A stretch of DNA of 64,000 nt. It comes from Mesodorylaimus sp. YZB2_4. Its lineage: Eukaryota; Nematoda; Enoplea; Dorylaimida; Dorylaimidae. The notes under the pieces were generated by a model. The model ran no database searches. It had not been told where the DNA came from and saw only the letters and a list, made by a program, of their open reading frames with translations. This document shows positions 6,560-37,377 of this stretch, in pieces. Location of the stretch: contig JASANH010000183.1 of NCBI GenBank assembly GCA_030248295.1, positions 744,001 through 808,000 on the forward strand, given 5' to 3'. The translations under genes and the position numbers were made by a program. Within the stretch, counting starts at the first letter, position 1, and every line of letters begins with the position of its first letter.

Positions 6560-9500
6560 ATGGGCGCGAATAGATTACTTGGTGGTTTGATGCTGTTAAT
6601 TTGCATTATATGGTCGAGCGGAGAACAGGTGAGAATTAGTTCTGCACAGTGCCCTTCATGTCAGTGTAGGGTCTATGAAATGCGTATATTGCGTACTACC
6701 TATTGTAATGATGACTTGTGATTATGAGAAGGTTTTCCCTTGTCTTGAACAGGTCCCAACTAAATACAGACCAAGAACAAGCTTGTGGAGCCACTGGACA
6801 GCATCCAGTTGTGTAGGTATTGGTAGTCAGGAAGGGTCTGTCCAGCAGGTCTTTTATGGCCAGGCCCATGGTAGGTATCGGCATTTACGATTTTGCGTTT
6901 AAAAGTCGATGATGCAAGTCCTGAAATGCTCATAATAACTGAATTTGACCCAAAGTGTTGCAGTAGGAAGAACTCGATCATGCAGACGAATAATGATGTT
7001 GCCAATAGCTGGCCTCAGTGAGCGTTCGGTGCATCTTGAAGCACTGGGGGAGGGACATCTAAGTGATAAACCACGTTTGAAAAGCTGGTTCTCTCGGAGA
7101 ATAGTTTCTAGCGGTCAGAGGGATATAGCCATCGGTTTAGGGCGGGTACTCTGCCCTGGCAGCCAGGTGTCATACCACTCCGTTTGATGTTACAGCCATC
7201 TTTTATAATGGTCTTGCCTGCTGCACCATTGGTTCGTCGTTTTCGGCGTGACAAAAACTGCCATGCTTCTTTCTCTGAACTTAGTAACCCTTACTTCTTC
7301 TGTCAATCGTAATACGTGTTTAATCAAGTTAGTATCGCTATTTTTCTGATACATTTTATCAACACAGTTGAAAGGGCAGTGTTTCTGAAATGACGGCGAT
7401 TACGTTACAACCAAAAGCTGATATCACTTTTAATAGTTACTGTCTTTCCAGGCCGACGTGAACGTTCGATATGTTCGAATCAGAAGTGATATTCAATCCA
7501 GATTCGCCACCACATTGATCACCAGTCGATTAGCCAATCCGACTAATGAAGCCAAGGAAATCACTTTCAATGCACAATTGCCAGATGCGGCATTCATATC
7601 AAACTTTTCGATGTAAGTCAAAAATATTGTATATACGCTGTATGCGGCACACAGCCATTGCAACCACATGCTGCCGCAAGTGAGGCGGCCAGTCAAGGCA
7701 GCCTAACGTACCTGCTTCATTCTGAAACTAGTATCATCTCAAGCAATGCAGTTGAGAGGGCTGCAATCATAGACATTTCACTCTTTACCCGAGAAACGTG
7801 CACGTGGCGGGTGGTACTATAGGCAAGGTTATCACACCATTTCTTCAGAGGGGAAGATTCGAGGAAATACAGTAACTAATTTTAGCAACAGAAATGCAGT
7901 GGATTTGTGTCTGCAAAAGCATACCCTATCGCGTTGATGGCACTGTTGCGTAATGAATAGGAGCGAGGAGGCTATGTTATTGTGCCGTTTTGAATGACTT
8001 CCAAGCGGCGGAGATAAAAATTCTTTTTAAAACAAGTCTAGTCACTTTAGGCAAATCGGTGATAAGGTGATCGTTGGAGATGTAAAGGAAAAAGAGAAAG
8101 CCAAAGCTGCGTATGACCAAGCTATACAGCGCGGAGAATCAGCTGGACTGGTCGCACAGAAGTAAGTAATGTTCATAGGAGTATATCCGATCCAGAAGAT
8201 GGAAATTTTTCGATCACAGACTTGTGTTGCCATCTGATTGGACAGATTTTCTGTTTTTGGTTTGGGTACCTCCTGTGCACCCTAGCTCCCCCCCAGCAGT
8301 AAGGGTGCGAGGCCGAGCAACACAGCCAGCAGCTTCCCTCCAGGAGCACCTCCTTCGCTGAGGGCTTATATCTTGGGAAGGCACCAGGGGCCGGTTTCAC
8401 AATCAGCTTGGACATGTCCTAGATATTAGGACACCCAAAGTCCTATCCTACATCACTGCGATTTTATCGTCCTAACTTTAGGATATGTCCTAGCTGATTG
8501 TGAAACCGGCCCCAGGTAAGAAAAGAGAGCCTCCCGACTGCTGCAAGAGTCAGCTTCCTAATTCTCTACCCGTTCGGCATCTGCCGCCTAATTATAATTG
8601 GTGAGAGCCCAGAGCCAGAGCAGGTGTGCAAGGCCAGCGACGGGTTTACTGCTGCTGTCGAAGATCCCCATTTACGAATAAGGACTGCGAAACCTCGAAG
8701 TTTGGTTCTGCTCTACTACAAGACTGGGTTGTGTCAGGCAAGTTGCGTCAAGAACAGCTGGGAATTTTTGCCATCTGTTTTCTCCTCGCTTCTAGCCCAT
8801 CCGCAGCCAGTCTTTCAAGAGCAACTCAACCTAACTTTTGCATGCGAGGTAGACTGAAGTATTTGAACGAGATTTAGCGGGAATCTTGTTCGCAAATGGT
8901 GGACTAGCTGCTAGCTCATTTTACATGCTCGTGCCGCGTACTCGAGGGTGAAGGGACACTACATACGAAATGATTACTGGGGCCGCGAGTCGAACACTCG
9001 CCCGTAACTGCGCACCTGGCCCCTACATGCTGCTATGCTGGTTTTAGAGCCCGAGAAACAAATACCTTCACAATCAGTACGAATGTGGCAGCTCACGACA
9101 AGGTCACGTTTAATTTGACCTACCAAGAAATTCTAAAACGTGTCCACGGCGCTTACAAGCACATTATCAATTTACAGTCTGATAAACTTGAGGTAACTTT
9201 CAACATACTGTAGGTATTTGCTGCCTTTGCATCAATAACATTTTGCTGAGCAGAGTACATCGGATGTCCAAATCGATGTTCGCATTATTGAACAAGGCAA
9301 AATTGTTAATGTCAGCGTGCCAAAATTTGGTTCGAAAATTGGAGAGAAGACGAACTCGGAATTGTTGAACTATGAGCGTAACTTTTTTTTGATCCGCTTT
9401 TTGGAGGGACATTAATACCCTACAAGCGCATTAGTGCACAGCAGTGGCATTGATGCTACTCTGAACCCATAAATGGGATGACGGGAAGAGAGGCAGGTGT

Positions 9501-12500
9501 TAATGAATCCTCACTCTCCGCATACTCTGTCACAAGCGATTTCATGCAAGAGGTACATCATGCATTAGACACACTAAGCGATAGCCCCTCGACAGCCTCG
9601 TGAACATTATCCTAAGCGATGTGAACCAAAATGATCATTTGAACATCATCATGTTCAGCACCGATTATGTAAGATGAAAACCGGAATCAGTGCGAGCAAG
9701 TCCGGATAATGTTCACGAGGCTATCGAGGTCACAGGAATCAGTGCCCTCGTCCATCTATCCCAAGGTGGCTAGCCCGCAATGACTAGCCACCTTGTGCCA
9801 CTCCGCGGAACGGGGTGGCTGGTGGTCCTCCTGTTCCTAGGATCGAAAGATGAATTTGGAGTTATGCGTATCGTGCACGCAACGAAGGCAACTGACTCGC
9901 TGTGTAAGGCATTCAAATGCACTGCCCCCCCAGACACAACCATTATGCATGACACTGCTAATGACCAGTTGCTGTTTGACTGAGAGGGTCACCCGTTTTA
10001 GAAGAGCCCAATGCCCAGATCACCACTCTCACGGCTGGAACAGTAACCACTACTCAAATTGCCTACAGACCACGACCTGATCAAATCGAGGCATCGAATG
10101 GTTCACTGGCGGGTCAGCTAGTCGTTTTATATGATGTTCAGCGTGACCTAAGCGGTGGCGAGATACAAGTTGTCAATGGATATTTCGTGCATTTCTTCGC
10201 ACCAACTGGATTGCCTCGAGGACAAAAACACGTTGTATTTGTCCTGGATAAATCTGGATCGATGATCGGAAGGAAGTTCGAGCAGACCAAGGTAGCCATA
10301 TGATCCTAGTAGCCGTCCCTCTCTGTCAGGAAACTATAATTCACTTCTGTAATACGAACACTGTGGGTGCACTCCCTGCTCGAAGTCTTTCTTGAATGCG
10401 CGCTTGTAGCACCTGAACTCGCAGACTCATAAGCCTTGTGCTATATGAGAGATATTATTTAACGTACTGACATGATCATGACAGGCTGCCATGCGACGTA
10501 TCCTAAGCGATTTGAACCAAAATGACCATTTCAACATCATCATGTTCAGCACCGATTATGTAAGATGGAAACCGGAATCAGTGCGCGCAAGTCCGGATAA
10601 TGTTCACGAAGCTATCGATTATGTCAATCGATCTGTGGCAGATTTCTGTAAGTGGAAAATTAAAGGATTTTTCAAATGGGATGAAAACATTGTGTTTTAG
10701 CCACTAACATCTATGATCCTTTGGTTGATGCATTGCACATCCTCAACTCGACTGGCTCAACTGCATTGGTCTCCATGATCATATTTATGACTGACGGCCA
10801 GCCCAATGCGGGCACTATCGCCAATGCGGATGGCATTGTGAAAAGTGTGACTGCATTGAACGCTGATACCAAGTTCGTCATTCATGGCATTGCCTTTGGG
10901 AACGATGCTGATTTTAATTTGGTGCAACGCATTTCGGTGGGCAATTATGGTTTGGCCAGAAAAGTGTACGAGGACTCCGATGCTGATCTGCAACTGACTG
11001 GTGAGTGCTGTTTCGTTTTATTGTGTGCCTGGGTCGTACTAGAGTACAGTACAGCTTCTGCACCATCAAGTCTAATGGATGTCCTGCCGTGGCCTAACAG
11101 CTGCCTCTCACGCTAGGTGCTTACTTACATGGAAGGGTTCGACTCCCGCCAGGGTAAAAATGATTGTCAATGGATGCGCTCCTTAGCACGAGCCTGCTAT
11201 GTAGTACTTGGCTATGGATAAAGTATGATATGGCATGACATCACCCTGTTGGGACCTCCTGGCTGCCTGCCCACAAGTCAGAGCAGAGCCAGACGTGTCT
11301 GTAGATATTGACGATGATCTGTAATAAGCCGTCTTTGGCGGACCTATGCAGCGTACTCTCTTCACGCAGCACAGTAGTTACAGTATGCGATCCTCTGAAA
11401 CTCACTCATATTTCACAGAAGAAAATTTTGAAACCATATCTTGTTTAGGTTTCTATAATGAAATCTCATCGCCACTCCTTACTGACGTCAAAATTCAATA
11501 CTTAAACGAAACGGTAGATGTGAGTACCCTGATCCATGACCAATATTACAACTACTACGATGGTGGAGAATTAGTCACATATGGAAAACTGACCGACCAA
11601 GCACCCGACCTGGTCACATTCGACGCTTCGATCTATGCACGCGGGGCTTCAGGGCCGGTTTCCTTGCCAGCCACTGCTCAGACGTTCATCTGCCCGCGTC
11701 GTCCAATCATTACCGAGACTGATGACGAGGAGCCCTGCTGCTTGTACCCGCGTTGTCCCCCGCCAGTACTACTGACCACTACGGAACGACCGATCCCTGG
11801 GCCGAGCAGTGTCGGTGGATTTGTGGAGAGAATGTGGGCTTATCAAACCATTAAGAAATTGTTGAAGGAGGCAGAATTGGAACAAGGAGAGGCTGCCAAT
11901 ACGAAGAAACAAGTGGCATTGAGGTTAAGCTTAAAGGTAAGGAGTTTGTAGGGGAAGGCTTGCCATATTCAAAACGCTAAATGCTGCTGCACCAGTTGTT
12001 TTTTTTGGACCGATTCATCGCTGCTGACAATTTCTAAACCTGATTGATACCCCTGACTGTCAGGTGGGTGCATGAGCTTTTGTGGCCTGGTTGCTGGCAG
12101 CTGCATATGTGAATGGACAGTGAATGCGGGGCTGGAGCTGATACCTGTCTGCGCTGGGTGCCTTAAGTTAAATTTAGCCAGGAACTAGTCTAAAGTTCCT
12201 CATCTTGGTCAGTCAGCTAAGCGCTTTCTTCCATTAGACGATGCCATGTCCAAATGGTTTTCTTTCCAGTATCACTTCGTGACTGAAATGACCTCGATGG
12301 TGGTGGTTCAGCCACACGAAGAAAATGCCACAGCTCTGGAACAAGTCCCGCCAGCCAATGAAGCTGTGCACGATTTCGGTCGAGGTCTGTATGGGCCGCC
12401 TCATTCCAGCTCAGGATATCACATGAAAATGTGTAAGTTGGTTCAAGCTATTTTGTGATTCCCAAGTTAAACTTCAGACCAACAAGTAGACTGAACCCAG

Positions 12501-13239
12501 CCTGCAATAATGAATGCAGTAGAATGCCTTTTCAGACAAAGTTTTCTTTTAAGCTGGCGCAGCAATGAGGCACATGCCGCCACAACCCAGTTATGCGTCG
12601 GGCGTGCCAGGCCTGCCAGGTCCGCCAGGTCCGCCTGGTTCGTTTGATGCACACTACATCATGTCACCAGACGCCATGAAAGATGGCGACGACTCAGTGG
12701 CACCGATCCTCGACCTACCGACAACTACTTCCCCATTGGTTCCGTCCCAATCTAAGTGCACCATCCTAATCATCGTGATTAAACCCACAAACACGACCCT
12801 CGAATCAGTGGATATTGGTCGAGTTACCAAGTTATATGATACCTTATCGGCTATGACCAGGGCTGATCCAGACCTGAAACTTGCCGGCTTAAAGTTCAGA
12901 GCGATCGGCGTGGAAGATATCAACGCCACGAAGGATATCTTGGGCCCGAGTGCACCCCTTCCGGGTTTGCAGCTGTCCACTATGGATAACACCAGCATAC
13001 GCTTCGAAACACTCGACCTGAGTCTTCACGAAACTGGTCATTTAAGGGTTACCTCAGTTGAAAAATGGTTGCTATGGATCGCTGAGGATAAGTCCGAGTA
13101 TGAACCGAGGAACGTGTATAATCGTCTGACAAGTGGCTATGGATATCGGTCAATGGGATTGAGTGATCAGGAATTTGATGACGCATTGCGACTCTTGAAA
13201 AGCTCAGAAGATTTCAAGAGGCATTGTTTAAGAGGCTAG
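6560..13239 (+). CDS. ITIH-like secreted VIT-vWA protein A
   Basis: Extracellular protein of the inter-alpha-trypsin inhibitor heavy chain type. Exons: 6560-6628, 7452-7612, 8051-8161, 9048-9192, 9254-9377, 10002-10291, 10485-10647, 10701-11000, 11449-11936, 12270-12432 and 12554-13239; all phases agree, about 899 aa. Order of domains: signal peptide in exon 1 (LMLLICIIW); VIT domain in exons 2-4 (SRFATTLITSRLANP, KVIVGDVKEKEKA, GESAGLVAQK); vWA domain in exons 6-8 with an intact MIDAS DKSGSM and MTDGQPNAG; a family-specific region with AYQTIKKLLKEAE in exon 9; five short collagen triplets (GVPGLPGPPGPPG) at the start of exon 11; then about 170 aa of unrecognised C-terminal domain ending in a Cys. 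The classical DPHF motif for chondroitin-sulfate linkage is not seen. Vertebrate ITIH proteins bind hyaluronan; ligand binding here is inference. A tandem paralogue follows at 14865. Confidence 0.9.
8387..8513. mobile_element. Palindromic MITE-like element in ITIH-like A intron 3
   Basis: The left end (GGGGCCGGTTTCACAATCAG) is repeated inverted at the right end (CTGATTGTGAAACCGGCCCC). The inner parts also fold (GGACATGTCCTAG against CTAGGACATATCC), giving a hairpin of about 45 bp per arm in 127 bp. It has no ORF, so it would be non-autonomous. CCAGG-like bases flank both sides. Confidence 0.75.
8920..9030 (-). repeat. SINE B copy (reverse strand), ITIH-like A intron 3
   Basis: Contains the family block GAGTCGAACACTCGCCCGTA (T-arm/box-B-like on the other strand) and the adjacent CTCGAGGGTGAAGGGACA. 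It lies only about 20 bp upstream of exon 4. Related copies are at 11085, 14335, 25250, 44010 and 46888. Confidence 0.7.
9587..9729 (+). pseudogene. Pseudo-exon copied from vWA exon 7, flanked by inverted repeats
   Basis: Positions 9608-9728 duplicate most of exon 7 of the same gene (10496-10616) at high identity, but carry an in-frame TGA where the exon reads TGG (AGATGA versus AGATGG). The copy lies upstream, in intron 5. Its last 26 bases (9704-9729) are repeated inverted at 9587-9612 with one mismatch, so the unit is a foldback. The left arm joins the copy at a shared TATCC. Confidence 0.85.
11085..11255 (+). repeat. SINE B copy in ITIH-like A intron 8
   Basis: tRNA-like head: TGGCCTAACAGCTGCCTCTC resembles a Pol III box A region, and GGGTTCGACTCCCGCC matches box B. 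The body has TTGGCTATGGATAAAG and GACATCACCCTG. This is the clearest plus-strand copy of the family in the window. Confidence 0.8.
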
Positions 13240-14775
13240 TGAAGCTCTGTTTTACGATGAGTGCACTAGTATTATTGTTCAGTCAGATAATACTACGATA
13301 TACTGTACCCGACATACGACTGCTTATACTTTGTGCGATTGTTTAGTCCATTATTCCCTTGGTGAGCGTTGTCACATTGCGTACCAGTAGCATAAAACTT
13401 ATGCTTTTATCTAGTTTGTACCTGCGTCAAACTAACGTCTTGGGTAGACATCAAGACTTGAGACTTAGTATGTCTTACAGTAGGGTGAATTCAAATTTCA
13501 AAAACTTTGTAATGGGCACGTACCCCTGCGCTATGCTGTCTCGCTGTGGTCAAAAGATGTGTGTGTCCACACCGTCATATACTGTATTACCACAGCACCA
13601 AATCTGGGTGTGCGCACTCGAGAGTGAACGAACCAATTACGCTTTTTTCGGCCTGAATTATTCCAGATCGGAACGACTATTTCAGAGACGAGGCAGAATC
13701 GGACTGCAATCCTGATAGAGATATCTTCTCCCGAGGGTGAGCCGCGAGTCGAACGACAGAGCAAGCTAGAATATGCGCACCTAGCGTAAGAGGGAGGCTG
13801 GCAATGGGCCACTGATCATGAGTCAGCACAGCCCGCAAAAGCGTATTGCGAATCCAAGGTTACTTCGAAAATGGCCTATGCTGCTGACAGGCTCTCGATT
13901 TTCATGTTGGCTAGTTTAGCTTGACTTCGCGGACCACATGGCCGACGATTGAGTGCACTTGCAGTGATCGCAACGCTGTCATACTGATCACGACCAGCAT
14001 GAATTATAAAAGGTTATCCTACTGTGCGACTTCCCTCAAAGGGACGTGAACAGGGTGCAGTAGTTTCTGGTTCAGCCCCACAGGAAAACGAGGGTCTGCA
14101 TAACAGATGTTTCCAACTGTAGCCAAGGCCAATGAAGATAAAGATATTACTTTTTCATTCTTTCTCGCATTTGCAGCACCACACGAGTGCCGTGCAGTGT
14201 GAATGGCACGATTGCTGATATGCTATCATGATCCCTATTACACCTTGTTGCATCCTATATGTATTGTAAGTGCAGGCCACAGGCTTGTCCATACCTGACT
14301 ACGCTGCCCATCCTGACTGGCCTGGATGGCCTCATGTTCATGTTTTTCCACATCACCAAACGCTTATGCGCACTCGGGGGTGAAGGGACACATTTTTCAC
14401 GAAATGATTTACCGGCCCGCGAGTCGAACACTCGCCCGTACCTGCGCACCTGGCGTGAGAGGCAGACGCCTAATCTAATCTTGCCTTTATCTAATGTAAT
14501 CACCTCCGCTTCTATGACTCACTCCTCACCTGGAAGGACCCGTTTGCCTTTCCTCAATAACCACCCGTTGCTCCATCTCCCTTTCCCCCTTTCGCAGGCA
14601 CCTCCTAGCCCAGTCTGTCGCCCATCTCTGCTCTGCGAATGCAGAAGACCTATGTTTCCTGATGTTCATCTAACTTCACACATTTGGCACCGAAACAAAC
14701 CTTTCGCCTAACCTAGTTACATTCACGAGCTAGGCTAGGAATGTCTCAAAAACATAACTGATGTGTTGTCGACCG
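13240..14775. other. Spacer between ITIH-like A and B
   Basis: About 1.5 kb with no convincing exon. It holds a diverged reverse-strand SINE B-like segment (13605-13800) and a well-preserved one (14335-14475). It presumably contains the 3'UTR of gene A and the promoter of gene B. Confidence 0.6.
14335..14475 (-). repeat. SINE B copy between the ITIH-like genes
   Basis: Shares ACATCACCAAACGCTTATGC, GGTGAAGGGACACA and GAGTCGAACACTCGCCCGTA, in this order, with 46888-47062. Read on the reverse strand it is a tRNA-like head (box B GTTCGA), a body and a 3' portion. Confidence 0.8.
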
Positions 14776-14777
14776 CC

Positions 14778-14800
14778 TGAGGCAATATAAGCTGAAAAAT
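14778..14800 (+). promoter_or_regulatory. TATA-like promoter of ITIH-like B
   Basis: CAATATAAGC lies about 80 bp upstream of the ATG at 14865, a similar placement to the TATA box of paralogue A. No other core element is obvious. Confidence 0.35.
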
Positions 14801-14864
14801 AAGTCAGAGAGAACCATTGCTTTTCCGTTGAGCTTGGAGAAAAACCTGTTGCACAATTGACATT

Positions 14865-17800
14865 ATGAAGATCATGTACATCGTCAAAGTATTTTTTGTG
14901 TTATGTATTGGCTTTTTATATGCTTCGGGACAACAGGTAAAATGATCAAAGTTCTTTGCTTATCTGGGTGCGTTTGGTGATGTGGTAAAACAGGAACAGG
15001 AACAGGAACAGGGAGCGCCACAGGTCGTCTTACCCGCAGTAAAGTGCATCACCTGCAGGCATAGGCATGTCGTGCAAAGACCCCAGTAGGGCACAAGAAC
15101 TAGACTGTCACACTGTACAGCAATATAATATACAGCATATAATAATTATGTTATTCATGCTTCGATATGCTGTCATCATCATCATCATTTTCGTAGCGGT
15201 TAGTCCCGTTTTAGGGCAGTGTCCGCTTTTCTTCTTTTCTGTTGCGCCTCATCGATTCACTTTTACTTTCTTCATGTCTTCTCTGATCGTGAGAGTGTCC
15301 CAGCACCGTTTTCTTGATCTGCCTCGTGGCCATCCCCCCTGCACTGCAACAGAAAAGAGTGCTGCGAGCCAGTCCATGGGCACCCCACCGTGACGTATGC
15401 GGCATCAAGCTGCTGTAGGGCGCACTTGTTGATAACATACTGCAGATCTTTACTGAACAGTTCGTGTTTCAATCGAAGCTTATTGGTACCGTACCACATT
15501 TGGATCGTTGGTACTAGGGTCGTTTTTTCTTGGTGGACATTTTTACTTATTGCTTTTGTAGAATCATGGCCGGTTGTAGAGATATCCGGATAAAACGCTG
15601 AAGCGCTTTATAATGTATGATGTAGGATCCGGTGCGGAAAATCAAACTTGACGCAGATTTTACTCTACAAGATGGGCTTTATCAGGTTTCAGCAAGTTTA
15701 CTACTGTAAGTTGGAAGACACTCAAAACGCAGTTTAATGCGGCTTTGACCGTCATGTTACTCAAAACTTTTGGGCCTACTCGTAGGTGCGCTGTGATATC
15801 AGATACTATAAAAATATGAGACGACAAAGTAAGACCAGCTAAGGGACGGCTGATTGTGAGACAGAAGAGCCTACTAATTGAGTGGGTTCCATGTACTGCA
15901 AATGGTCCTTTAAAGTTCAAAGATGATCATGATTTCCTTCAAAGTTCAAAGACTCAAAAGAATTACTTCTGAATTACTGTACTTCTGAATTACTGAATTA
16001 CTGTAGAAAAGAATTACTGTATGATGACAAAATGTGTTGTAAATTTTTAATGCCCTTCGAAAAGTCGCCCCCCCCCCCATGGCTCCCGTTAAAAAGTAAA
16101 TTTTATAATTCACGTTATTTGGCTCCCTTGAAATACTTGGAGTATCTTCACTTCTTTACCTTTTGTTCATCCCTTGGCCGGCCGAACAGTCGGGTTCATG
16201 GCTGCATCCTACCCTACCCTACCTACAGCAAGCGGGCAGTAGCATATGCAAGCAAAGTCATGTGCCCGGTTGTGTGTGTACATGGATTATTCATATCCAA
16301 CAGCAGTATGCAGTATGTACGGGTATAAGTGTTGTAAATGCGCACCGTGTATGCACCATAATGTGTTTGCTTACCATGTTTGTGTGTGCACCAAACATGA
16401 ACATGGCGATACCAAATTTTTCGACGTCAAGTACGATTCCCTTCATAATATCATGATTTCAGCCCGATGTAAGAGTCAGATATCTGCGCATAAAAAGCGA
16501 GATTCAATCAAGATTCGCAACGACTCTCATTACCAGTCGACTGAGCAATCCGACTCATGAAGCTAAAGAAATCTTTTTCACAGCACAATTACCAGATGCT
16601 GCGTTCATATCAAATTTTTCCATGTAAGTACCGTTCGATCTCACCGTCAGTCACACTGGCCTTTTTAGTTTTACTATAATATTTATCAACAGCAGTGCGA
16701 GTATCCAAGTGCTTTTTTTTTATCCTCTGGGAGTAAAATGGTGCAGCATTACAAGGCACCGGTAATTTTTGAGCCATTATGTCAGTCGCAGCAGATACTG
16801 TATTTTGCAGGGTGCTGTTGACACACTATGCCAATTCTAAGGCCGCACCAGCACACTGCAGGTTGTGTGTGTGTTGGTACATGAAGGAAGCAAGGAGATC
16901 AGAATTTATAAATTCGCATAGTGAGACATCCTGAACCAGTAGATTAAGAAGGCTGAACAGGCGGAAGATACTAAGTATAAATCGCTTTTCCTTGTACCTT
17001 CATCCGTCCAGCAGTTACTTTTTAATATGCAGCAAATCCAGTAAGGAAAAAAGTTTCTGTATTTTTTCCAGGCAGATCGGTAAGAAGGTGATTGTCGGAG
17101 ATGTGAGGGAAAAGGAACAGGCGAGAGTGACCTACGAGCGAGCAAGGAGTCGTGGAGAATCAGCTGGTTTGGTTGCCCAAAAGTAAGTCACCGTCTTTGG
17201 TCAAAGTTGTGGAACCACACTATATGCTACAGTACAGGGTCCATATACAGTAGATGACAATCCTGATCGATATTTTCCCAACTGATCATAATTTCGCCAA
17301 GACCCCTCCTAGGGTCCTCGGGTATTATGTCTCGCATACGAAGTCAAAAAATTATTGGTCCATCTCCCAGCCAGGGTCGACGGTACATACCGACTTTTTT
17401 GACCGTACCGTACCTGGGGCCTGGTACCGCCGCCGCACCGTGCTAATAAAAACGGTCAATCTGGCAGCAAAAAATTTGAAAATTTTTTCAAAAGATTTTA
17501 TAGATATTTTAAGTAAAGGCTTTCTAACTCTGGTGTGCTGTTGTGACCATTGCCGCTTGGGGGGGGGGGGGGGGGGGGGGGAGGGTGCCTGGAATTCTTT
17601 GGGGTGTGGCTTGGGCAGTTGGCTCGGTAAGGAGAAGCCAGGCCAGTATAAGAGCAGGCCGCCGGGGGAGATTGGGGCTCTCCCTTGCTTGTTTTCACTC
17701 GATTCGATTCCATCGGTGTTCTGAATTTGTGGGGAGCCACCCCTTCTGTTGTCCTCCCCATTGGCAGAACTGTGGGGCGAGCCAGGTGCTGGCCAGAGAC

Positions 17801-20800
17801 TTCGATTAGCACACTCTCAAAGGGCCTCTACGGTCGTCGTTTCCTTCGGTTCATACTGGAAAAGTCCAGAGTTGACTCCGGGACAGGTACTTGGTTTGTC
17901 TGCGGATTTTTCTGTGGGTGAGATGCAGGACCGTGAAGACATCGTCGTGCATTGTTGTGCTTCGTAAAGGGTCCTCTGGTGTTGACAGAAGTCTTTACTG
18001 CGCCATCGATAGCGGAACTGCTTGCCATCGCAGGCATCTTAGACCCGGCTGCATTCGACCAGCAGCCAGGCTAGCGTATGATTGCACAGAGCAGTTGCAG
18101 GCACCCTTGGGAGGCGCGACGAACACTACTGAGGGGTTTGTTGAGGAATCGAGGTCTTAGTAATCGAGCCTCTGCAGGAATAAGCCTTTCTACAAGGTCT
18201 GGGCTATTGAAGATCTCGGACCGCTCGCTTGGAAGAACAGCCCGAACCCGCCAGTACGAGAGCGAAGAAGAGCTGTCGCACACTCGCAAACAACACCCAT
18301 AACAGTGCATCTCATTTTTTCTCCTTTGATATCGCAGATTACAAGAGATTCTTTTGCTCCATCATGCTACTGTACCTATGTATACATGCTCAAAGACTAG
18401 ATATGAACTCATGATCTACACCTACAATGATTTTGATAAAAATTGGCACGATTTCAGACTAGGCCGATTCTGAAAAGTGCTCGAAAAATCAAAAATTTTC
18501 GTCAAGCCGTTCTTGAGTTGTTAGCCAAGGAAAATCGTCCTTTAGCTTTAGGCGTCTGGTTGGCTGGTCTAAGCAGGCACTACCGTGTCTGCTGATATGA
18601 GAAATGTAATGATGACCGTGGTACACATCTGTGCTGCGACGCTTGGTGGTGCTCATACTGTAGATCCAGAAGCCTCCTGTTTCGATGTCTTGCACAAAGA
18701 TGCCAACAAAATTTTTAAATTAAGATGGATCAGAAAACCTTGCCAGAATACATCTGTTGAAATTTAATCAATATATGGGTTCCCTAACCAGCGCTTCGAA
18801 AAATTACAGGCAAGGAATTTAGTCTTTCATATAGGAAACTGCAGCATTGCAGGCGCCTCAAATTCAGCAACAGCGACTCCAAGAATGACCACATTTCAAT
18901 TCAAGAAAGCAGCATTTTTAGCTGCACTTGGAGAACTCACAAGGATCACAGCCCCAAAGTCAGCCTACTAGCATCCGGATTATAAGATAAGATGCTCTGC
19001 GAGTAAATGCTTGAAATTTTGGTCACTTTTTAGGATCGGTTATCTAACAATAGTTTGGGATTATAAACCCACAATAGGCAGACTCATTTTCTCTTCATAA
19101 AAATTGGCCGCTTTAAAGCGAAGGAATGTACGCAAGCGTCAAATTACACAAAAATTATTGTAAAACTCGGTACGGCCGTACCGGCCATTTTCAGAGCCGC
19201 ACCCGTACCGTACCCCTGGTACGGCAGGTACGGTGGTACGGTCGACCCTGGTCTTCCGGCTACCAAATGAGAAAATACAATCCTGGGAAAATATAGACTT
19301 TGTTTGAAGTAGGTACCGTATTTTTAGCTCTGGCACTGAATAACACGTACAGTAATACAACCACCAATCAGGGAAGAAGAGCTCGGAACAGCTCTTATTA
19401 TAACAAAAATTACCTGCTCTAAATGGAATGATAAAAAAATTATAGCCTCAAGAATTTTTTGAATCGAAAAGTCGAGAATTCGAGAACTGCTTGACCTTTC
19501 TTGCAAATAATAGAATCTCTGTGAAAAAGATAACGACTCGCAGGGAAATGAAGACTGAACCAACTGATGATGATTGAAATTTTAGACCCAGGGAAACGAA
19601 CACGTTTACAATTTCTGCCAACGTGGCGGCCAAAGATAAGGTCACTTTCAATTTGACCTATCAAGAAATCCTAAAACGTGTTCATGGTGCCTACAAACAC
19701 ATTGTCAATTTGCAATCTGATAAACTTGATGTAAGCTTCTGTGCACTATTCGTAATCAGAATTGGACATTACATGGTGGACATTTAGATGTCGTCGGATA
19801 TCACAATCGAAGTGCGAATCATGGAGCAAGGAATAATTGTCAACGTGAGTGTTCCTAAGTTTGGAGAAAAGATTGGCGAGAAAACCAACTCGGAATTGTT
19901 GAACGCTGAACGTAAGATGTTATGATATCAGAAATCACAAAAAAGCCTCAAACAGTATGCTATGTAGTTCTGCGTGAAGTCGATCGCAGGGTTCGGCGGG
20001 ACCGCCTTTGTTAACCCTTCCCTGGTCAAACTTGCGGACCCGTATTCTCCAGTGCGGGGTCCACACTTCAGAAGTCGTTTTTGATCGATATCTCACGAAC
20101 CGATCAAAATTCGATCGTATCGATCGCGAAATCCCATCGTAGGGTTCTCGGGTGCCATGTCCCGCATGCTTGGGTCGAATTTCATCAAAATCCGTCGAAC
20201 GGTGCCCGAATGGCGCCGAAAAAACCTTCCCGGAACTATATAGACCTCGTTTGTAACGTAAAGTACCGTAGTTTTGTAGAGCCGCGAGAACTATCTTCTA
20301 GCACAGGTAGCGTACAGTAGCTACTTGATGTTACTAACAGTTTGACCAGCGCCTATAACTATTCTTTTTTATTCGAGCAATGTAACCTCTTTTTGATCAT
20401 TTTGTGAGGATTGCTCGAAATAAAAAGCTCGCATTTTTGCAATCCTTACATAATATTTTTCGTTTCTTTTTTGCATTAGAGCCACTTTAAATGTTGATCA
20501 GCTTTTGAAATTCAGACATATTACAATGCACAAACTGTGTGATAGAGTACACTGAGGCACCCACTCAGGGTTTCTAATCTGAATTTCTTGATGCCAGGTT
20601 CTATTTATCTGCATAAATCTAAACGGAAGTTACAGCTTTTATTATCTCGACGAGCTATATTTGTAGAAGAGCCCAACGCGCAAGTGACCACGCTATCTGC
20701 TGGCCCAGCGTCGACCACGCAGATCGTCTATAAACCACGACTAATCGAGTCCTCCAATGGCAGACTAGCAGGTCAGCTGGTCGTCTTGTACGATGTCCAA

Positions 20801-23800
20801 CGTGACATGAGTGGTGGCGAGATACAAGTGGTCAATGGGTATTTCGTACACTTTTTCGCACCAACTGGATTGCCTCAAGGACAAAAACATGTCGTATTCG
20901 TCTTGGACAAATCTGGATCGATGATTGGTAGAAAATTTTCACAAACCAAGGTAAGAAAAACAAAGTTACGTTGGGGAGATTTTCAATTGGTGGCGAATAC
21001 GCGAGTGGGCGTGGCTGCCACAAGGGTATCCAATCAGATTTCTTGAAATGAAAATTTTTAATTTCAGGCAGCAATGCATCGTATTCTGACCGATTTGAAT
21101 CGAAACGACCTGTTCAACATAATTTTTTTCCAAAGCGATTACGAAAGATGGAAACCAGAATCTGTCCGCGCAACACCTGACAACGTGCGCGAAGCCATCG
21201 AATATGTGCAGCATTCCAGAGCTGATGGAAGTAAGTAGGAGACTTTGCAACGAAGTGCAGCATTCATGTGAATATCTGTACAGCTTGTAGGGTCAGAAAA
21301 ACAAGGAAGATCCCCTTGTAGACAAACGGTCTTTTTTTCAATTCACATTTGCAGCACCATTTTAGTGACAAATATTTACGACTCGCTCGTGGCTGGTCTT
21401 CAAATTCTAAACTCATCTGTTGCGAGTCCACTGACTTCCATGATTATATTCATGACTGATGGACAGCCGAATGCTGGACGTTTCTCTGAACCCGATGAAA
21501 TCGTGCGCAATATAAACGATATGAATGCTCATACAAAGTTCGTCATTCACAGTATTGCATTTGGCGAGCATGCCAATTTCAATTTGGTGAAACAGATTTC
21601 GGCTAATAATTATGGCCTGGCAAGAAAAGTTTATGAAGACTCGGATGCCGATGTGCAACTGACAGGTACGAGTGGGTGGCAGGCGGGTACTCGATGGACT
21701 CACCTACCGCAGGCTAGATTACCCCACAGCCGCTGCTTTTGAAAGTGTGTCAGTACCAGCTACAAAATGTGGGGGTAAATTTAGGTGAGCGGCGGGAAGC
21801 AAAATGCCGAATCGGCTTGTACTCGTGCCAGCAGTTTTTACCTGTGTCTAATTAGTTGGCGACAGACCGATGAATACTTTGGCATCGAGTTTTACAGTGG
21901 GGAGATACTCTCTCACCCACCGTGACGTTGCGTGTAGCACAGCCACCAGAAAAAGCTTCTGAAAGCTCAAAATGTCAAGATGTCATTTTCAATGCCAGTT
22001 CAGACCAGCTTGTCTTGCTTTTTGAGGGTCTTATTGAGTACCCACACTTGGTCACACATCCAACGATCAGCTACCGATTTTGTACTGCGGTGCCTTGATG
22101 TCTTTTCAACTGCTTAATTGTATGGAAAATCCTTCACTAGGATCATTGGTTAATGTGTGGCATCATTCTCATATGCGCCTATAAGGTTTTTACAACAATT
22201 TTACCCTTCACAAATACGGTTTCACAGCAGGAAAAACCGTTTTTGGAGTTGCATGTTGATGCCTCAATTTGACCAGCGCTTGAAACTTGAAAAATAAAGA
22301 AGAAACGAATATCGTGTCTTAACGAATATCGAATATCGAACGAATCAAATTATTTTTGTTGACTTTCTTGGCCGTTATTAGGAAGAAAGGACTCATTGGA
22401 CGGACTGGATCATTGATTTCGACTCTTCTCTCTTGCTCTACTGACTGACTCTCGCACATACTATCAACCAATGAGCCTAGCGATTCTGCATAAAAGTAAC
22501 CAGCGTCGGCATGCATACATTGAAAACACGTAATAAATCCTGTATTTGTAATGCATTCTCAAGCAATACAGCTAAAGAGAAGAGTTTGCGACTGAATCAA
22601 ATAAAAAGTCGGAATGAAACATTCCGGGCGGAGAGAGCTCTTTCAATTAAAAGAGGGCATAGTTACGATTTAGTTTTTGCATTAATTGAGTGAAAAAAGA
22701 CAAAGAAAAACAAATATCTCAACAACACGACCGATAAGTTGATCTAAAAAGTGAGAAATCCGAGCACATGCATAGTAATACTGGGACAAACACCACGTAG
22801 AGTACAGTACAACCACAATCCTCAATCGGGGATGTGACTGTATTGAAAAATAGTCTACGTCATGCGATACATTCTGCGCACGAGGCAGTTTTTGGTTTTC
22901 TTTTCATATATTTGTCCTTCCTTATCTTTACTGTTATCAAAAACAAAGCTTTCAATCATCGAGGCATCAGTATCGAACATACAGCGAACAGTATGTCCGC
23001 TGGACAAGCTTAACGTAAAAGCCAAAAAACTATTTTGACGGGAAAGGACCTTTTGAACTTCTACAGTATACCCATGGTAACAAGTGAGGGGCTAGAGTAA
23101 AATTCAATGCACTGCACTCAAATCCAATCGCTCGAAAAAAAACTTCAGTCATATTCTTACGAGTGAAAAACCTGCGCTCTATTAAGTGTTAAATGGGGTT
23201 TACGACTGGATTTATCACGTCAACCTGCATCATCAAGCTATGTGTACTAAATACTCTGGATAGCGGCTAATTCAGGATTTCATTATCCTCTAATTTTGAG
23301 CCTTGATTAATGATAAGCTAAAACAAGCGTGAGTAATCTTCTGTCAGAAAAAGTTTGTTTGCAGTACAATTTAAGACGATCAGTAATTGTCACCTGTGTA
23401 CGAGAATGGCATTGACACTCGCACGCAAACAGCACAGAATGTTAAAATGAGTGCACAAAAGGTGCGACAGTGATAAAATGTTGGGCCATAAGAGCTTGGT
23501 GATTCTGTGACCCAGCACCATAAAGCCCACTGACCACATGTTTTTTTCTCCAGGTTTCTACGCAGAAATCTCTTCTCCACTTCTCGCCAATGTGCAAATA
23601 CAATATCTGAATGAAACGGTTGATGCCAGCTCCCTCGTTCAAGACCAGTCCTACAATTATTACGAAGGTGGGGAAATGGTCACTTTCGGCAAACTAACTG
23701 ACCAAGCCCCCCAATTCGTTCCATTCGATGCCTCGATCAGAGCACGCGGAGCGCGAGGCCAAGTTATTTTAGTCACTCATTCCAACACCCTGATTTGTCC

Positions 23801-26800
23801 CCGGCATGTTATCAGCGATGACGATACGACCCCTCGGGCGTGTTGCGTACATCCGCGTTGTCCCAGTCCGATTCAGTTGATCACCAGTACAGAGAGGTCG
23901 GTGCCTGGACCGAGCACCTTGGGTGGATTTGTGGAAAGGATGTGGGCTTATCAAACTATTAAGAAACTGCTGCAAGAGGCCGAAGTGCAGGGAGGAGAAA
24001 TTGCGGCCAGAAAGAAGCAAGAGGTGTTAAGGCTAAGTTTGAAGGTAAGGCGACCTTCGGCATTTTTGGGAGCCCATCTTTGGGAGATTTAGTAATCTGT
24101 TTGGAAAAATTTGATTTTTTGCAAGGTTCCATGTGCCTTGAGATGGCATGTTTTGGAAACCCTTGTGTTTAGATTATGCTGCAGGTTCTGGGCGATCCCC
24201 CCTCCCTCTGCCAGCATTCTTCAATGTCCTTGCCATAACAGCATAAAAATTTTGTGTGTGTGTGTAATAAGAATGGACTATGTATGTAGTGCTCTCCGGC
24301 CTATTGGTGCACTGGTTCAGGGAACCGGTCCCTCTCCCCCTAAGTCTGGGGCAACACGTGTGGGATTGTAAAACGTATCGAGAAGAGTCCGTGGACGCGT
24401 GGGTTGATTCCTGTGGCTTGAGCCATCCTCTGGTCAGCCCTAAATCTATCCTAGGGCGAGCCAAGGATTTCACCTATTTAAATGTGGGGTGCCCTATTGA
24501 ATAGGGCAAACCCCACAATAATGGATGCAGCACAATAGATAACAGAGGCTTGCCCGGACAAACTTCTATGATCCATTATGCTGCCATTTACACCGTACCC
24601 CACTGTGCAACCAACACCCTGCTTGCGTCGCTGCAACTGCTTGCTTGCGTTGCTTCACGTTCCGCTGCGGGTTTTTGTTTTTCCGAGGTTATGAAGGAGG
24701 TGTATGGTAGTCACCTAATTTTCTCAGTTGATATACAGTACATGTATATAGGGGCATGCGGTGTTTCGGTCCAAACTAGTTTGTAAGAAAAAGACGGGAA
24801 ACGGTCTTATGATTTCCAAAAAAGTCTGGAATGACAGATTCGAAACTTTTAGACCAGCCAATGCACACAGTGGAACCAGGGCTTAGGATGGCTGGTCTAC
24901 TCGTGACACGAAGAGAGGCCTGGCATGCTGCGCACTGCATGCAGTGTGTAATCACTCGCACATAGATGTTTGTCGATGTCAGAATCAAATCCAACATGCT
25001 TGTGTGCTGTGTACTGCTGCTGTTTGAACACCCCAAGGGATACCAGCTGTGGTATTCCACACGGGCAGCCTGACTTTGCTGAAGCGTTAGTGCTGCGAGT
25101 GAAGTGATAGCTTCTCGTGGATATGCCTAAGCCTCGAAAGACACTTCCAACAATCTTTCCTCCCCTTCTTTCAACTTCAGTAGGTTCATGCTCATGTCTA
25201 CCCCATCAGCAATTTAGCGCTTTATCTGTACGTATATATTTGCTTTGGGAATGTACAAGCCAGCCGCCCATGGTACCGCGAGTAGATTCCAAAGAAAACA
25301 GATAGTTCAGTATGACACGGACAAACAAACGAAATGATCTACCCAGCCTGAAGTCGAACATTCGCCAGTAGTGCGCACCTAGCCCGAGAGGCAGACACTC
25401 CCAGCCCGCTATGCAAACCACGAGCTCGATCTTTCAATGACCCTCTGCTGGTTGCTCATGATCAGTTGTGCTGCTGATATTCATGAAGAAAGAAAAGGCA
25501 GCGTCTGTTTGAGCACGTTTTCTAATCAACCATGGCTGCGTTTTGCAGCGGCCGAGTAGACCAGCCATCCTCAGCCCTGGTTATCCACTGTGTGCATTAG
25601 CTGGTCTGAAAGTTTCGAGTCTGCCATAACAGACTTTTTGGAAATAATTATCCTAGATCTTTGGCATTCATCCTCATCAGCAGTAGCCGCTGGGAGATCA
25701 CCAGCTTGCACTACTGTACAGCATTTTTCAAGCCATCTCTTTCGCATTACTAAGCAGTATCTGTATAGCATGCCAGCTGTACTTTCTCTCTTTAGTATCA
25801 TTTTGTCACAGAAATGACTTCGATGGTGGTCGTACAGTCGCAAGAAAGTGCTACATTTTTGCAAAAGATCAAACCAGGGGAAGCCACAGAAGATCAAGTC
25901 CAGTGGCCTATGCGGCAACTTGGTAGAAATATGGGTGGGAGTAGAATAATTGGTGGTGGCAGCGGCGGTGGATTGGCTGGACCTCAAGGCCCTGCATCAG
26001 GTGAATTGGCAGGACCTCCAGGCCCTTCGTCAGGTAAGAATCGAACTGGTTTTACAAGCAAGATGCATGGTGTGAATTTAGCCGCCTAGGTTTTGTGTGG
26101 CAATGTTTTGTTAGCAGAGCTTTAATTCGACTTCTACGTATATAGTTGCAGGCATTACCTTATAAGGAATGTTTTCTGCTTCCTTATGAATGTGTTGGTG
26201 ATTCACTGTATGTAAGTGAAAGGCATGTGAAGGTCTTCTATTTTCACTGCCTAAACGTAGCTATGAAAAGCGCGAGCGCATGCATGAACAGCGGACGAAT
26301 GAGCGTGAACAGTGGATGAATACACCAAGCGCACACCAAGCAATGTTTCCGAAAGTAATGTGATATCCTGCCATGGCACTCACAACAGGCCCTTTTCAGC
26401 CCATTCATTTTATCACAGCAGGGCCCATAGCCGAAGGCCTGATCCCCCCAAATTCAACCATCCTGCCCGAAGTCGGCCTTCCTACGTGGGTCAGATGACA
26501 GCTCAGCCAGCCTCCACACAAACTCCATCCACGACTTCATTCTCATCAGCCGCTTGCTACATCGAGCTGTTGGTTTTGATTGGACCGGCCTCATCGACCG
26601 AATCGTTGACATCGATTCAATCGATTCCTTTCGAACGTATTAATCGATTGATCAGAATAATCCAACAATCGCCTTCATCTGCGGCACTGCGCGTGTCAGC
26701 AATTTGGTTGAATAACCTAGCTGGCTCTAGTCGTACTGCGCTGGTTTACGATAAATCGATCGAATCAATCATTAATCCAGACGCGATCAAGAGCGATGTG

Positions 26801-27088
26801 CGGGGCGCGTGGGTGAACTCCACCACCTCGAGCCATACCACATTTGCTACCATACAAGAAACTATGCAAAAATTGGTACCGAAAGCGGGGAATAAGAATC
26901 GTCTTTTGTTGTGGCTTTTCCCGAGTGGGAACGGTCGCACACAGTTTAATCCGATGGAGACCATAGAGATCCTGAACACCAATCCTGGATTCCATTATTA
27001 CTCAATGGGAGCTACAGAAGAAGAGTTCCAACGTGCATTGCAAAAAGCACGTGGATCCTTTCAGGCTTCTTGTTCTGTCATTGCGTGA
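14865..27088 (+). CDS. ITIH-like secreted VIT-vWA protein B
   Basis: Tandem paralogue of the preceding gene. Exons: 14865-14936, 16463-16623, 17072-17182, 19586-19730, 19788-19911, 20667-20950, 21068-21230, 21366-21665, 23554-24044, 25796-26033 and 26400-27088; about 925 aa. Exons 2, 3, 4, 5, 7 and 8 have exactly the same lengths as in A. Signal peptide FFVLCIGFLYASG; VIT domain (SRFATTLITSRLSNP, KVIVGDVREKEQA, GESAGLVAQK); vWA domain with MIDAS DKSGSM and MTDGQPNAG; then AYQTIKKLLQEAE. The linker differs from A: a Gly-rich stretch (GGGSGGG) with two short GP-type triplet patches in exon 10, then a basic, Pro-rich start to exon 11. The C-terminal domain aligns with A at its end (RLLLWLF..FHYYSMGATEEEFQRAL). 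The acceptor at 26399 (CCCTTTTCAG) was chosen because it alone keeps the phase. Introns are long and repeat-laden. The function is inferred to be extracellular-matrix related. Confidence 0.9.
14960..15022 (+). repeat. SINE B tail with GAACAG microsatellite
   Basis: GTTTGGTGATGTGGTAAAAC followed by four GGAACA repeats. The same tail (GGTGATGTGGT then GAACAT units) ends SINE B copies elsewhere and appears alone at 27166, 36965 and 53970. It sits just after exon 1 of ITIH-like B. Confidence 0.65.
17205..17460 (+). repeat. Diverged copy of dispersed repeat E (ITIH-like B intron 3)
   Basis: Carries ATCGATATTTTCCCAACTGATCA-like, AGGGTCCTCGGGT and TGTCTCGCATAC blocks in the same order as 20055-20345. 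It is more diverged, with a GTACCG-rich end related to 19160-19260. Confidence 0.5.
17561..17582. repeat. Poly-G homopolymer, about 20 nt
   Basis: An uninterrupted G run in intron 3 of ITIH-like B. A similar run occurs at 54334-54354 and a poly-C run at 60402-60420. Such runs can form G-quadruplex structures and are prone to length error. Confidence 0.9.
20050..20345 (+). repeat. Dispersed repeat E, copy 1 (ITIH-like B intron 5)
   Basis: About 290 bp including ATCGATATCTCACGAACCGA, GCGAAATCCCATCGTAGGGT and AACGTAAAGTACCGTAGTTT. The blocks recur in the same order, reverse-complemented, at 49390-49700, and diverged at 17205. No coding capacity and no terminal repeats were seen. Confidence 0.75.
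21666..23553 (+). other. ITIH-like B intron 8, no recognised content
   Basis: A 1.9-kb intron against about 450 bp at the matching position in A. No repeat family from the rest of the window was recognised here, and no exon-like open frame with conserved residues was seen. Confidence 0.55.
25250..25410 (-). repeat. SINE B copy in ITIH-like B intron 9
   Basis: AAGTCGAACATTCGCC and GTGCGCACCTAGCCCGAGAG match the T-arm/body blocks of the other reverse-strand SINE B copies (GTGCGCACCTGGC..GAGAGGCAGACGC). It is diverged. A neighbouring AAAGAAAACAGATAG block also recurs near 48340. Confidence 0.6.
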
Positions 27089-27159
27089 GCTGAATTATCA
27101 TGACTGAAGGAAAAGTTATGTAGTAGTCATGCCTGTGTTGTGTGTACCTCGCAGCACGC

Positions 27160-27205
27160 GAGTGCTTGGTGATGTGGTGAATCATGAACATGAACATGCA
27201 GATGG
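27160..27205 (+). repeat. SINE B tail fragment downstream of ITIH-like B
   Basis: GCTTGGTGATGTGGTGAATC followed by ATGAACATGAACATG. It is the 3' tail of the SINE B family inside the 3'UTR/downstream region of ITIH-like B, and it was copied along with that region to 36960. Confidence 0.6.
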
Positions 27206-27364
27206 GAGACATAGACTACTTGGATTTTGGCTTGGAAAACTAGGCATTGCTTGCCAAAATGAAGTGCCAATTTTGATTTTTGTAATAAGCACTCTACTCC
27301 CAACTCAATCGTACCTAGGGTTGTATCGAATGTCTCGTACAGCATGATTCCATGCTGTACGAGT

Positions 27365-27720
27365 GCCGTACGGGATTCAATCCGGTGACGGAGGTCAGCG
27401 AACCGTGAATCCGCCTCGCTGACCTTGACCGCCAGGCCGTGGGTGACTAACCCGGTACCGCCGAGGTGCTCCGAGTGGAGAGACGGGAGCCAAACGAGGT
27501 GGCACTTCAGGCGGTCGAACAACGACTAGGTTTGCAGCCCACCCGCAATCGTCCGAGGAAGTCCAGGACTGCCTCGTGTGAAGGAGCTCCTTGCTAAGAC
27601 ACGCAGTATAAACTAGCTCGACTGCTTAACGCCATAGGCAAAACGGGCTTTGGCCCAAAAATAAGTCAGTCTGAGTCACCGCGTCTTTTGTACCTTCGCA
27701 CACTATTTCTGTATTTCACT
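27365..27720 (+). repeat. SINE A copy, 5' truncated
   Basis: Begins within the tRNA-like head (GGGATTCAATCCGGTGACGG) and continues through the body (CTTGACCGCCAGGCCGTGGG, CGCCGAGGTGCTCCGAGTGG, GTCCGAGGAAGTCC) to the family end AAAACGGGCTTTGGCCCAAAA and CACCGCGTCTTTTGTACC. A hairpin (27334-27363) marks its left border. Confidence 0.8.
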
Positions 27721-28849: not shown

Positions 28850-29345
28850 TCTAAGTTAAACCTGCAGCATCCCAAATCAAGCCTATCGCCCCCAGTAAAA
28901 AACAGGCGTCTCCTATGTCGAGTCTGTCAAACCCCAAAGTCGGGCCCTGCCGCCTCCCAAGTCGAACCGGTCGCCCCCTACGAGTCGAGCCTGCCCCCCC
29001 AGATCGGACCTGCCATTTCCAAATCGTGCCTGTAACAGCTCCGAAGAGCCGTTGCTTCTGGCACTCTTCGGGAAACAGCTTCTGGCCCGATCCGGTGAGC
29101 CTTTCCCGAATCGGACCTGCCATTTCCAAATCGTACCTGTAACAGCTCCGAAGAGCCGTTGCTTCTGGCACTCTTTGGGAAACGGCTTCTGGCCCGATCC
29201 GGTGAGCCTGCCCCCCAAATCGGACCTGCCATTTCCAAATCGTGCCTGTAACAGCTCCGAAGAGCCGTTGCTTCTGGCACTCTTTGGGAAACAGCTTCTG
29301 GCCCGATCCGGTGAGCGGCCTGACCCAACTCAATAAGAGGCTTCC
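28850..29345. repeat. Tandem array, unit about 107-110 bp
   Basis: Three near-identical units start at 29003, 29110 and 29219, each containing TCGGACCTGCCATTTCCAAA, AACAGCTCCGAAGAGCCGTT and GCTTCTGGCCCGATCCGGTG. Degenerate, CC-rich partial units flank the array (28900-29000 and 29320-29520). All frames stay open across it because the unit lacks stops, but nothing suggests a protein. Confidence 0.85.
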
Positions 29346-29577
29346 GACCCAACCCGGCGAGCGGTCTGGGCGCAACCCAGTTAGTGGCCTGACCTAACCT
29401 CGTAAGTTTAACTTCTGACACAACCAGGGAGGCTCTGGTCAAACCAGGGACTGTTGACTTAATCTAGTTGGCCGCTCCTGGCCAAGCTAAGAAGCAACTT
29501 CAGGCCCAGCCCCGTTAGCAAATTCTTGTACCAACCTTATGAGCGGTTTCCTCGATTCCACTGCTTTTGCCCGAAAA

Positions 29578-35900: not shown

Positions 35901-36733
35901 CGCGAAGACATAATTATTGTACCCTACTATAGTTTACATTATTGCTCGCTTCATCATTCACAGAAGACCCAACTTGCTCGTACTTGATTTTCGACTGAGA
36001 TAGACCCGCTTGGCGAATGTGTGCGGTCGAGTTCGCCTTCGACAGAAATTTTTCCGACCAGCCTACTGATCAAAACACACATAAAATTAAACCAAAAGAT
36101 CTGGCGAGCTCTGCAGAATAATTCTGCTGAGATTCTACGATTCTAGTCTTTCGCTACGGTATACTGAATCCTCCCTCTAAGGCCCAGGGTTATCAGCAGG
36201 AAGGTCTAAAATACAGAATATTTAGAGCTCCACAAGTTCCAAAGTGCCAAGAAAAACGCCACTACTTACATCGAAAGATAAGTCACGGACAATCGTCTTG
36301 CAAGTCGAGAGGTATGTATATGCGCTAAAAGAAAAGAGAAAGGGAAAGTTTGCCGATTAGCAGTTAGAAGGACACACTTGCGAGCCTCATAAAACGATCC
36401 ATCGTCGCCAAATTTACGATTTTTACGATCTAAAAATTGACCATATTAAACGCGTCTGGATCATAGCAAGGAAGTTTTATTTACCCCGCGAGTCGGTCGT
36501 AGAAATTCGAAGCTCTTAAAAAAAGCATCATATGCATTGCCAAAAGTGAGAACATGATAACTTGCCTCATTCGGCTTTTCAATGCGGCCAATAAAGCCAG
36601 TTGCTTGCCTGAACACTCTCTGCGCGTAGCTTCTTACCAACGAATCCTAGGCAGTAATATAAGGAATTACAGCTTACAAAGCTTTCTAGAAAAAGTACAG
36701 GAAAACTACATCGTCCTAGTGACCAGAGTGGTG

Positions 36734-37165
36734 ACCGTCGCACACAGTTTAATCCGATTGAGAGCATAGGGATTCTTAACACCAATCCTGGATTCCATTA
36801 TTACTCAATGGGAGCTACAGAAGAAGAGTTCTAACGTGCATTGCAAATAGTACGTGGAACCTTTCAGGCTTCTTGTGCTGTGATTGCGTGAGCTGAATTA
36901 TCATGACTGAAGGAAAAGTTATGTAGTAGCCATGCCTGTGTTGTGTGTACCTCGCAGCACGCGAGTGCTTGGTGATGTGGTGAATGATTAGCATGAACAT
37001 GCAGATGGCAGACATAGACTACTTGGATTTTGGCTTGGAAAACTTGACATTGCTTGCCAAACTGATGTGCCAATGTCGATTTTTGTAATAGGCTTTCTAC
37101 TCCCAACTCAATCGTACCTAAGGTTGTATCGGATGTCAAGTATTCCATGATTCCATGCTGTGCCA
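36734..37165 (+). pseudogene. Duplicated 3' end of ITIH-like B
   Basis: About 430 bp matching 26930-27345, from within the last coding exon through the stop and downstream sequence, at roughly 90 percent identity by eye. The coding part carries a new stop (TTCTAA where the gene has TTCCAA). No upstream exons accompany it. The copied downstream part includes the SINE B tail. Confidence 0.85.
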
Positions 37166-37377
37166 GTAATTTTTTGCGTTCTTGGACACCCTACGGAAAG
37201 TCCAACGATTTGTACAACGTTATTCACCTATTTTGATTTTGATGCTCGTGATAAGTGCTCGATGTATCCATGCACATTATAGTACATCACCGGAACCTTT
37301 AAGAATTCCGATCAATAGATCAGCTGCCACAAAAAATTTTCCATAACTTGTAATAGCCAACCATGAAGTATTAAGCT

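Follow-up and report, generated by a model that had tools for sequence, protein, structure and literature searches.

A likely second, metal-free vWA-like domain at the end of two tandem ITIH genes in the nematode Mesodorylaimus

Knowledge of ITIH proteins comes mainly from the heavy chains of vertebrates. In these chains the tail is removed on attachment to chondroitin sulfate. The metal site of the vWA domain of HC1 (D298, S300, S302 and D403) binds C3 and a second HC1, and vitronectin and fibronectin are bound without the metal site (PMC7170535). ITIH4 from the planthopper Nilaparvata lugens has 907 amino acids, with a signal peptide, a VIT domain and a vWFA domain at 304-517; the 390 residues after vWFA are given no name by the authors' domain search (PMC8951764). 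Knock-down of this gene delays ovary development and reduces egg laying (same source). An ITIH4-like protein from Argulus foliaceus has 883 amino acids (PMC7029603). We have analyzed a stretch of 64,000 nucleotides from Mesodorylaimus sp. YZB2_4 (assembly GCA_030248295.1, contig JASANH010000183.1, positions 744,001 to 808,000, forward strand), which we call the window. It contains two tandem ITIH genes, A and B. Both probably code for secreted heavy-chain-like proteins which end in a second, degenerate vWA domain, carried on a flexible Pro/Gly linker at the place of the human C-terminal pro-domain.

Gene A occupies positions 6560-13239 and gene B positions 14865-27088, both on the + strand. 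Each has 11 exons and all junctions are GT-AG. The gene models are predictions, assembled from exon matches and splice sites. The predicted proteins have 899 (A) and 925 (B) residues, which resembles the length of the Nilaparvata lugens and Argulus foliaceus proteins. In both genes the first exon codes for a signal peptide and ends in phase 0. A VIT domain (PF08487) and then a vWA domain (PF00092) follow in the same predicted secreted protein, the arrangement of an ITIH heavy chain, and this first vWA keeps the metal-site motifs DKSGS and TDG. The sequence-only reading of this DNA had placed its features between 12554 and 27088, and these coordinates are exact exon and stop boundaries. The features are as follows:

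6560-6628, + strand: gene A, exon 1, signal peptide MGANRLLGGLMLLICIIWSSGEQ with a hydrophobic start, phase-0 donor
7452-9192, + strand: gene A, exons 2-4 (7452-7612, 8051-8161, 9048-9192), VIT (PF08487, E 8.6e-34)
9254-11000, + strand: gene A, exons 5-8 (9254-9377, 10002-10291, 10485-10647, 10701-11000), hybrid-like region and first vWA with intact DKSGS and TDG (PF00092, E 4.3e-16)
11449-12432, + strand: gene A, exons 9-10 (11449-11936, 12270-12432), post-vWA ITIH region (...YHFVTEMTSMVVV) and start of the linker; exon 10 ends in phase 1
12601-12645, + strand: gene A, linker, five GXY triplets (0/5000 shuffles)
12757-13227, + strand: gene A, C-terminal domain from Cys to Cys, 157 residues, in the last exon (12554-13239, stop 13237-13239)
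14865-14936, + strand: gene B, exon 1, signal peptide MKIMYIVKVFFVLCIGFLYASGQQ with a hydrophobic start, phase-0 donor; alternative candidate starts exist
16463-19730, + strand: gene B, exons 2-4 (16463-16623, 17072-17182, 19586-19730), VIT (E 4.3e-32)
19788-21665, + strand: gene B, exons 5-8 (19788-19911, 20667-20950, 21068-21230, 21366-21665), hybrid-like region and first vWA with intact metal-site motifs (E 6.5e-16)
23554-26033, + strand: gene B, exons 9-10 (23554-24044, 25796-26033), post-vWA ITIH region and GGGSGGG...GPPGPSSG linker (25952-26033)
26555-27073, + strand: gene B, C-terminal domain from Cys to Cys, 173 residues, in the last exon (26400-27088)

The solved structures nearest to A by sequence are human ITIH4 (PDB 9c4f, E 1.4e-103) and ITIH1/HC1 (6fpy, E 4.1e-90). 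They resemble A in the VIT domain, the hybrid-like region, the vWA with its metal site and part of the post-vWA region, with best stretches at residues 7-490 and 3-500, respectively. A second ITIH4 stretch covers residues 554-682 of A, up to the GXY run, and leaves the tail of A uncovered. A and B differ from both human proteins at the C-terminal end: they have no match to the ITI_HC_C model and no DPHF motif, and carry a linker and a vWA-like domain instead.

The strongest evidence for a second vWA domain is found in paralogous genes. A VIT search of the genome detects three further ITIH genes: L009 (C44), and L010 and L011 (both C95). All of them have a Y-x-FVTELTSMVVV block, followed by a linker rich in Gly and then by an open frame that would code for the last domain; in L009 the connection between linker and domain is tentative. 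The tail domain of L010 and L011 is an exon of its own behind a phase-1 intron, and a linker intron of phase 1 is found at the same place in A, B, L010 and L011. Shuffled matrix modules, too, are typically coded by an exon of their own that follows a phase-1 intron.

We have compared these tails with a hidden Markov model (HMM) of vWA, built from 21 near full-length vWA domains of this genome (from 30 places) together with the first vWA of A and that of B. The L011 tail matches it from end to end with 40.9 bits, which none of 500 shuffles equalled (483 scored), and the L010 tail with 10.0 bits, also above all 500 shuffles (476 scored). An alignment of both tails gives P 4.3e-9 over 152 columns against the vWA profile in hhalign; L010 alone gives a weak match (prob 9.7, P 0.0033). 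The two tail domains are 37% identical. When the L011 tail is searched against all six frames of the genome (E up to 10), four places are found: the tail itself, L010 (E 5.4e-29) and a pair of weak matches (E 0.07 and 1.16), both of which coincide in frame with PF00092 vWA places (E 7.6e-25 and 2.8e-7). The same search finds only itself and L011 with the L010 tail, and only itself with the L009 tail. Pfam reports no vWA in the tails of L010 and L011. A PDB sequence search with the L011 tail and two profiles returns either nothing or unrelated proteins (E 1.3 for lipoteichoic acid synthase, 0.088 for kinesin KIF1A). A clear vWA ancestry of the L011 tail is well supported by these profile comparisons, as is that of L010 by homology to L011. 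The L009 tail (700-1158) is shorter, contains no Cys in the tested stretch and scores -0.9 bits against the vWA model, equalled or bettered by 192 of 450 scored shuffles. It has a weak likeness to the L011 tail (4/400 shuffles), which hints at kinship.

The tails appear to have lost the metal site. DxSxS is absent from all five of them (A, B, L009, L010 and L011), and in L011 and L010 the TDG position of strand 4 reads TSK or TTK. The sole TDG string among the tails, in L010, lies away from the strand-4 position. Four of the five tail domains have a Cys before strand 1 and another one at the end, a pair which in A and B probably forms a disulfide stapling the ends of the domain. In the A and B domains Cys is found at the two ends only, and CxxC is absent.

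The identity between A and B varies along the protein. It reaches 81.0% in VIT and 83.5% in the middle region, is 72.2% for the first vWA and 68.6% for the post-vWA region, and drops to 37.6% in the linker and 27.0% (41/152) in the tail domain. The domains behind the linkers had been said to align with each other, and this is correct: the local alignment of the tails scores 83, compared with 29.5 +/- 4.7 for shuffled sequences, and none of 1000 shuffles scores as high. The similarity is real, and its significant part corresponds to the last 50 residues or so. A Pfam search with the whole A and B proteins and the five C-terminal domains (E up to 10; HMMER filters discard most matches above 0.1, so the listing is incomplete there) names no tail domain. 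The best tail rows are Pou (0.097), VG15 (0.052) and BILBO1_N (0.023), all below their own cut-offs.

The linker had been described as a collagen-like hinge. This description suits A, whose five GXY triplets are above chance; it does not suit B, whose three triplets are at the level expected by chance (1019/5000 shuffles), and neither linker has a long uninterrupted GXY repeat. A stable triple helix would need more than five GXY triplets. Moreover, the GLPGPPDVP stretch of human ITIH4 aligns with the GXY run of A, which argues for a Gly/Pro linker shared with ITIH4 rather than for a new collagen hinge.

For the tails of A and B themselves the case for vWA is weaker, though such a fold is likely. 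It is suggested by their position, the Cys pair, the order of strands and helices and the low-confidence model of the B tail. In Foldseek, this model (pLDDT, predicted local distance difference test, 54) matches Ku entries best (E 3.6e-4, prob 0.97), and the isolated von Willebrand domain of Ku80, collagen VI and complement convertases are among the 50 matches listed. A weak HMM match of B sets the strand-4/TDG region at the expected place. In a custom overlap alignment, B scores -1.6 against -26.4 +/- 8.4 in 60 shuffles (maximum 3.2), which is suggestive only. Several results weigh against a vWA fold. The A tail gives no signal with the genome vWA model and the B tail a marginal one only, and hhalign finds no link between the A or B tails and those of L011 and L010. 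Neither the overlap alignment nor a profile which combines vWA with L010 and L011 rescues A; reversed A scores above A. B is at chance against the L010/L011 profile alone. The A model (pLDDT 59, also low confidence) leans to a thioredoxin-like fold, with vWA-type chains only as integrin beta rows. In VIA-align, other Rossmann-like folds outrank vWA for B, and for A vWA appears as integrin rows only. The metal-free vWA-like domain proposed in the sequence-only reading is partly supported: it is seen by profile in L011 and L010, and the metal-site motifs are missing from all the tails; the fold search leans to vWA for B, at low confidence, and does not give it for A. We infer that the A and B tails go back to the same ancestral vWA and have diverged fast.

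The A model makes it necessary to consider the A and B tails as an unrelated alpha/beta domain, either thioredoxin-like or with another Rossmann-like fold, gained at the same place, so that vWA would be limited to L010 and L011. We think this unlikely, though it deserves attention. The lack of CxxC and the restriction of Cys to the two ends speak against a thioredoxin-like domain, and the B model favours Ku entries in Foldseek. Gene position and flanking Cys pattern are those of L010 and L011, and two folds at one place need an extra event. A second alternative is that the tail is a diverged form of ITI_HC_C (PF06668), the Pfam model which we take to cover the ITIH pro-domain region. Its fold is mostly beta, and the A and B tails are predicted to be alpha/beta. 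No PF06668 row is found for A or B at E up to 10, subject to the same HMMER filters, and across the 145,146,385 bases of the genome (1067 contigs) the best match has E 0.36, contains stops and is below the cut-off. In addition, the L011 tail is a vWA by profile. A diverged ITI_HC_C is therefore hardly credible, in spite of its agreement in position and its length, similar to that of human pro-domains (239 and 244 residues; PMC7170535). The earlier suggestion that the tail is something other than the known ITIH C-terminal region agrees with these searches.

It is also very improbable that the tail is a decaying or poorly constrained extension and not a functional domain. The tail is the fastest-changing part of the protein, with 27% identity between A and B compared with 69-84% upstream, as expected for such an extension. 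Nevertheless, it is open over its full length in five genes, the end Cys pair is found in four of them and the motif in the last 50 residues is kept between A and B. In contrast, near-identical copies of the end of B are already broken. The C89 copy of its 3' end (L018, 5249-8171), with a length of 2.9 kb, matches positions 24808-27717 of the window with 91% identity over introns and exons, and has indels and stops in the tail frame. Another copy, 445 bases at 36723-37167 of the window, matches 26920-27364 with 91.5% identity and no gaps, and also has stops in the tail frame. Since the A and B tails have remained open while copies with about 91% identity have not, selection to keep them coding is suggested.

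Returning to a second vWA at the end of A and B, other proteins may be compared with this arrangement. The vWA-like domain of Ku80 (6tyx and 6tyt) uses a vWA-type fold for protein contacts and works without a metal site; these entries are matches 33 and 34 of the B model (E 0.02), behind whole-Ku entries. Unlike A and B, Ku80 is a nuclear DNA-repair protein, and its match to the B model is one of structure. The vWA modules of collagen VI, which is among the matches of the B model, and of matrilins are extracellular, as A and B would be. They differ in that the tails of A and B have no metal-site motifs and their linkers contain at most five GXY triplets, with no collagen domain.

A DPHF-type motif is the site of esterification to chondroitin sulfate. 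It is absent from the A and B proteins, although one Asp-Pro is present in the linker of B. Because ITI_HC_C and DPHF are both missing, transfer to chondroitin sulfate or hyaluronan in the human manner seems unlikely, less surely for B in view of its Asp-Pro. A different way of working may be proposed. The first vWA would bind a ligand through metal, like HC1 when it binds C3 or a second HC1; this is plausible, as the first vWA keeps its metal-site motifs. The second domain, on its mobile linker, might dock to a partner protein or to another ITIH chain independently of metal, like the vWA-like domain of Ku80. Such two-headed chains, with a metal-dependent head and a tethered metal-independent one, could cross-link their partners without the covalent glycosaminoglycan transfer typical of the best-known vertebrate heavy chains. 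If this is true, the ITIH family had, or gained, another way to link matrix partners.

The balance leans slightly to a wider statement: a second vWA, devoid of its metal site, would have taken the place of the pro-domain in this lineage, and perhaps throughout the ecdysozoan ITIHs, so that the heavy chain would have two vWA domains. An insect ITIH4 has been described with VIT and vWFA only, so ITI_HC_C is not required of the wider ITIH family. The tail described here may be common in arthropods and merely unannotated, a guess from length alone; a second vWA would also explain the long unnamed tail of an invertebrate ITIH4. In searches of open-access papers, none of the titles and opening abstracts listed mentions a second vWA in an ITIH protein, which does not prove its absence from the literature.

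Other features were also observed. A and B have a four-Cys, Pro-rich insertion (ICPRRP...PCCLYPRCPPP in A) that separates the post-vWA strands from the helical region further on, and is coded by exons 11449-11936 and 23554-24044. The genome is rich in vWA, with 108 PF00092 places. Two long open frames of C5, L031 and L032 (624 and 552 amino acids), each show an apparent signal peptide and a single vWA, as well as a stretch rich in Cys, a probable membrane helix and a long tail. This suggests a membrane-receptor-like family that may be expanded. Elsewhere in the window, an exon of a Rad21/Rec8 cohesin gene is found at 342-779 (PF04825, E 1.6e-18) and one of an amiloride-sensitive sodium channel at 42586-43218 (PF00858, E 4e-9). 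Together with the ITIH genes, these two exons are what one expects of an animal. The overlapping minus-strand open frames at 28851-29442 contain repeated segments (PEATALRSCYR...) and probably correspond to a tandem repeat, not to a gene.

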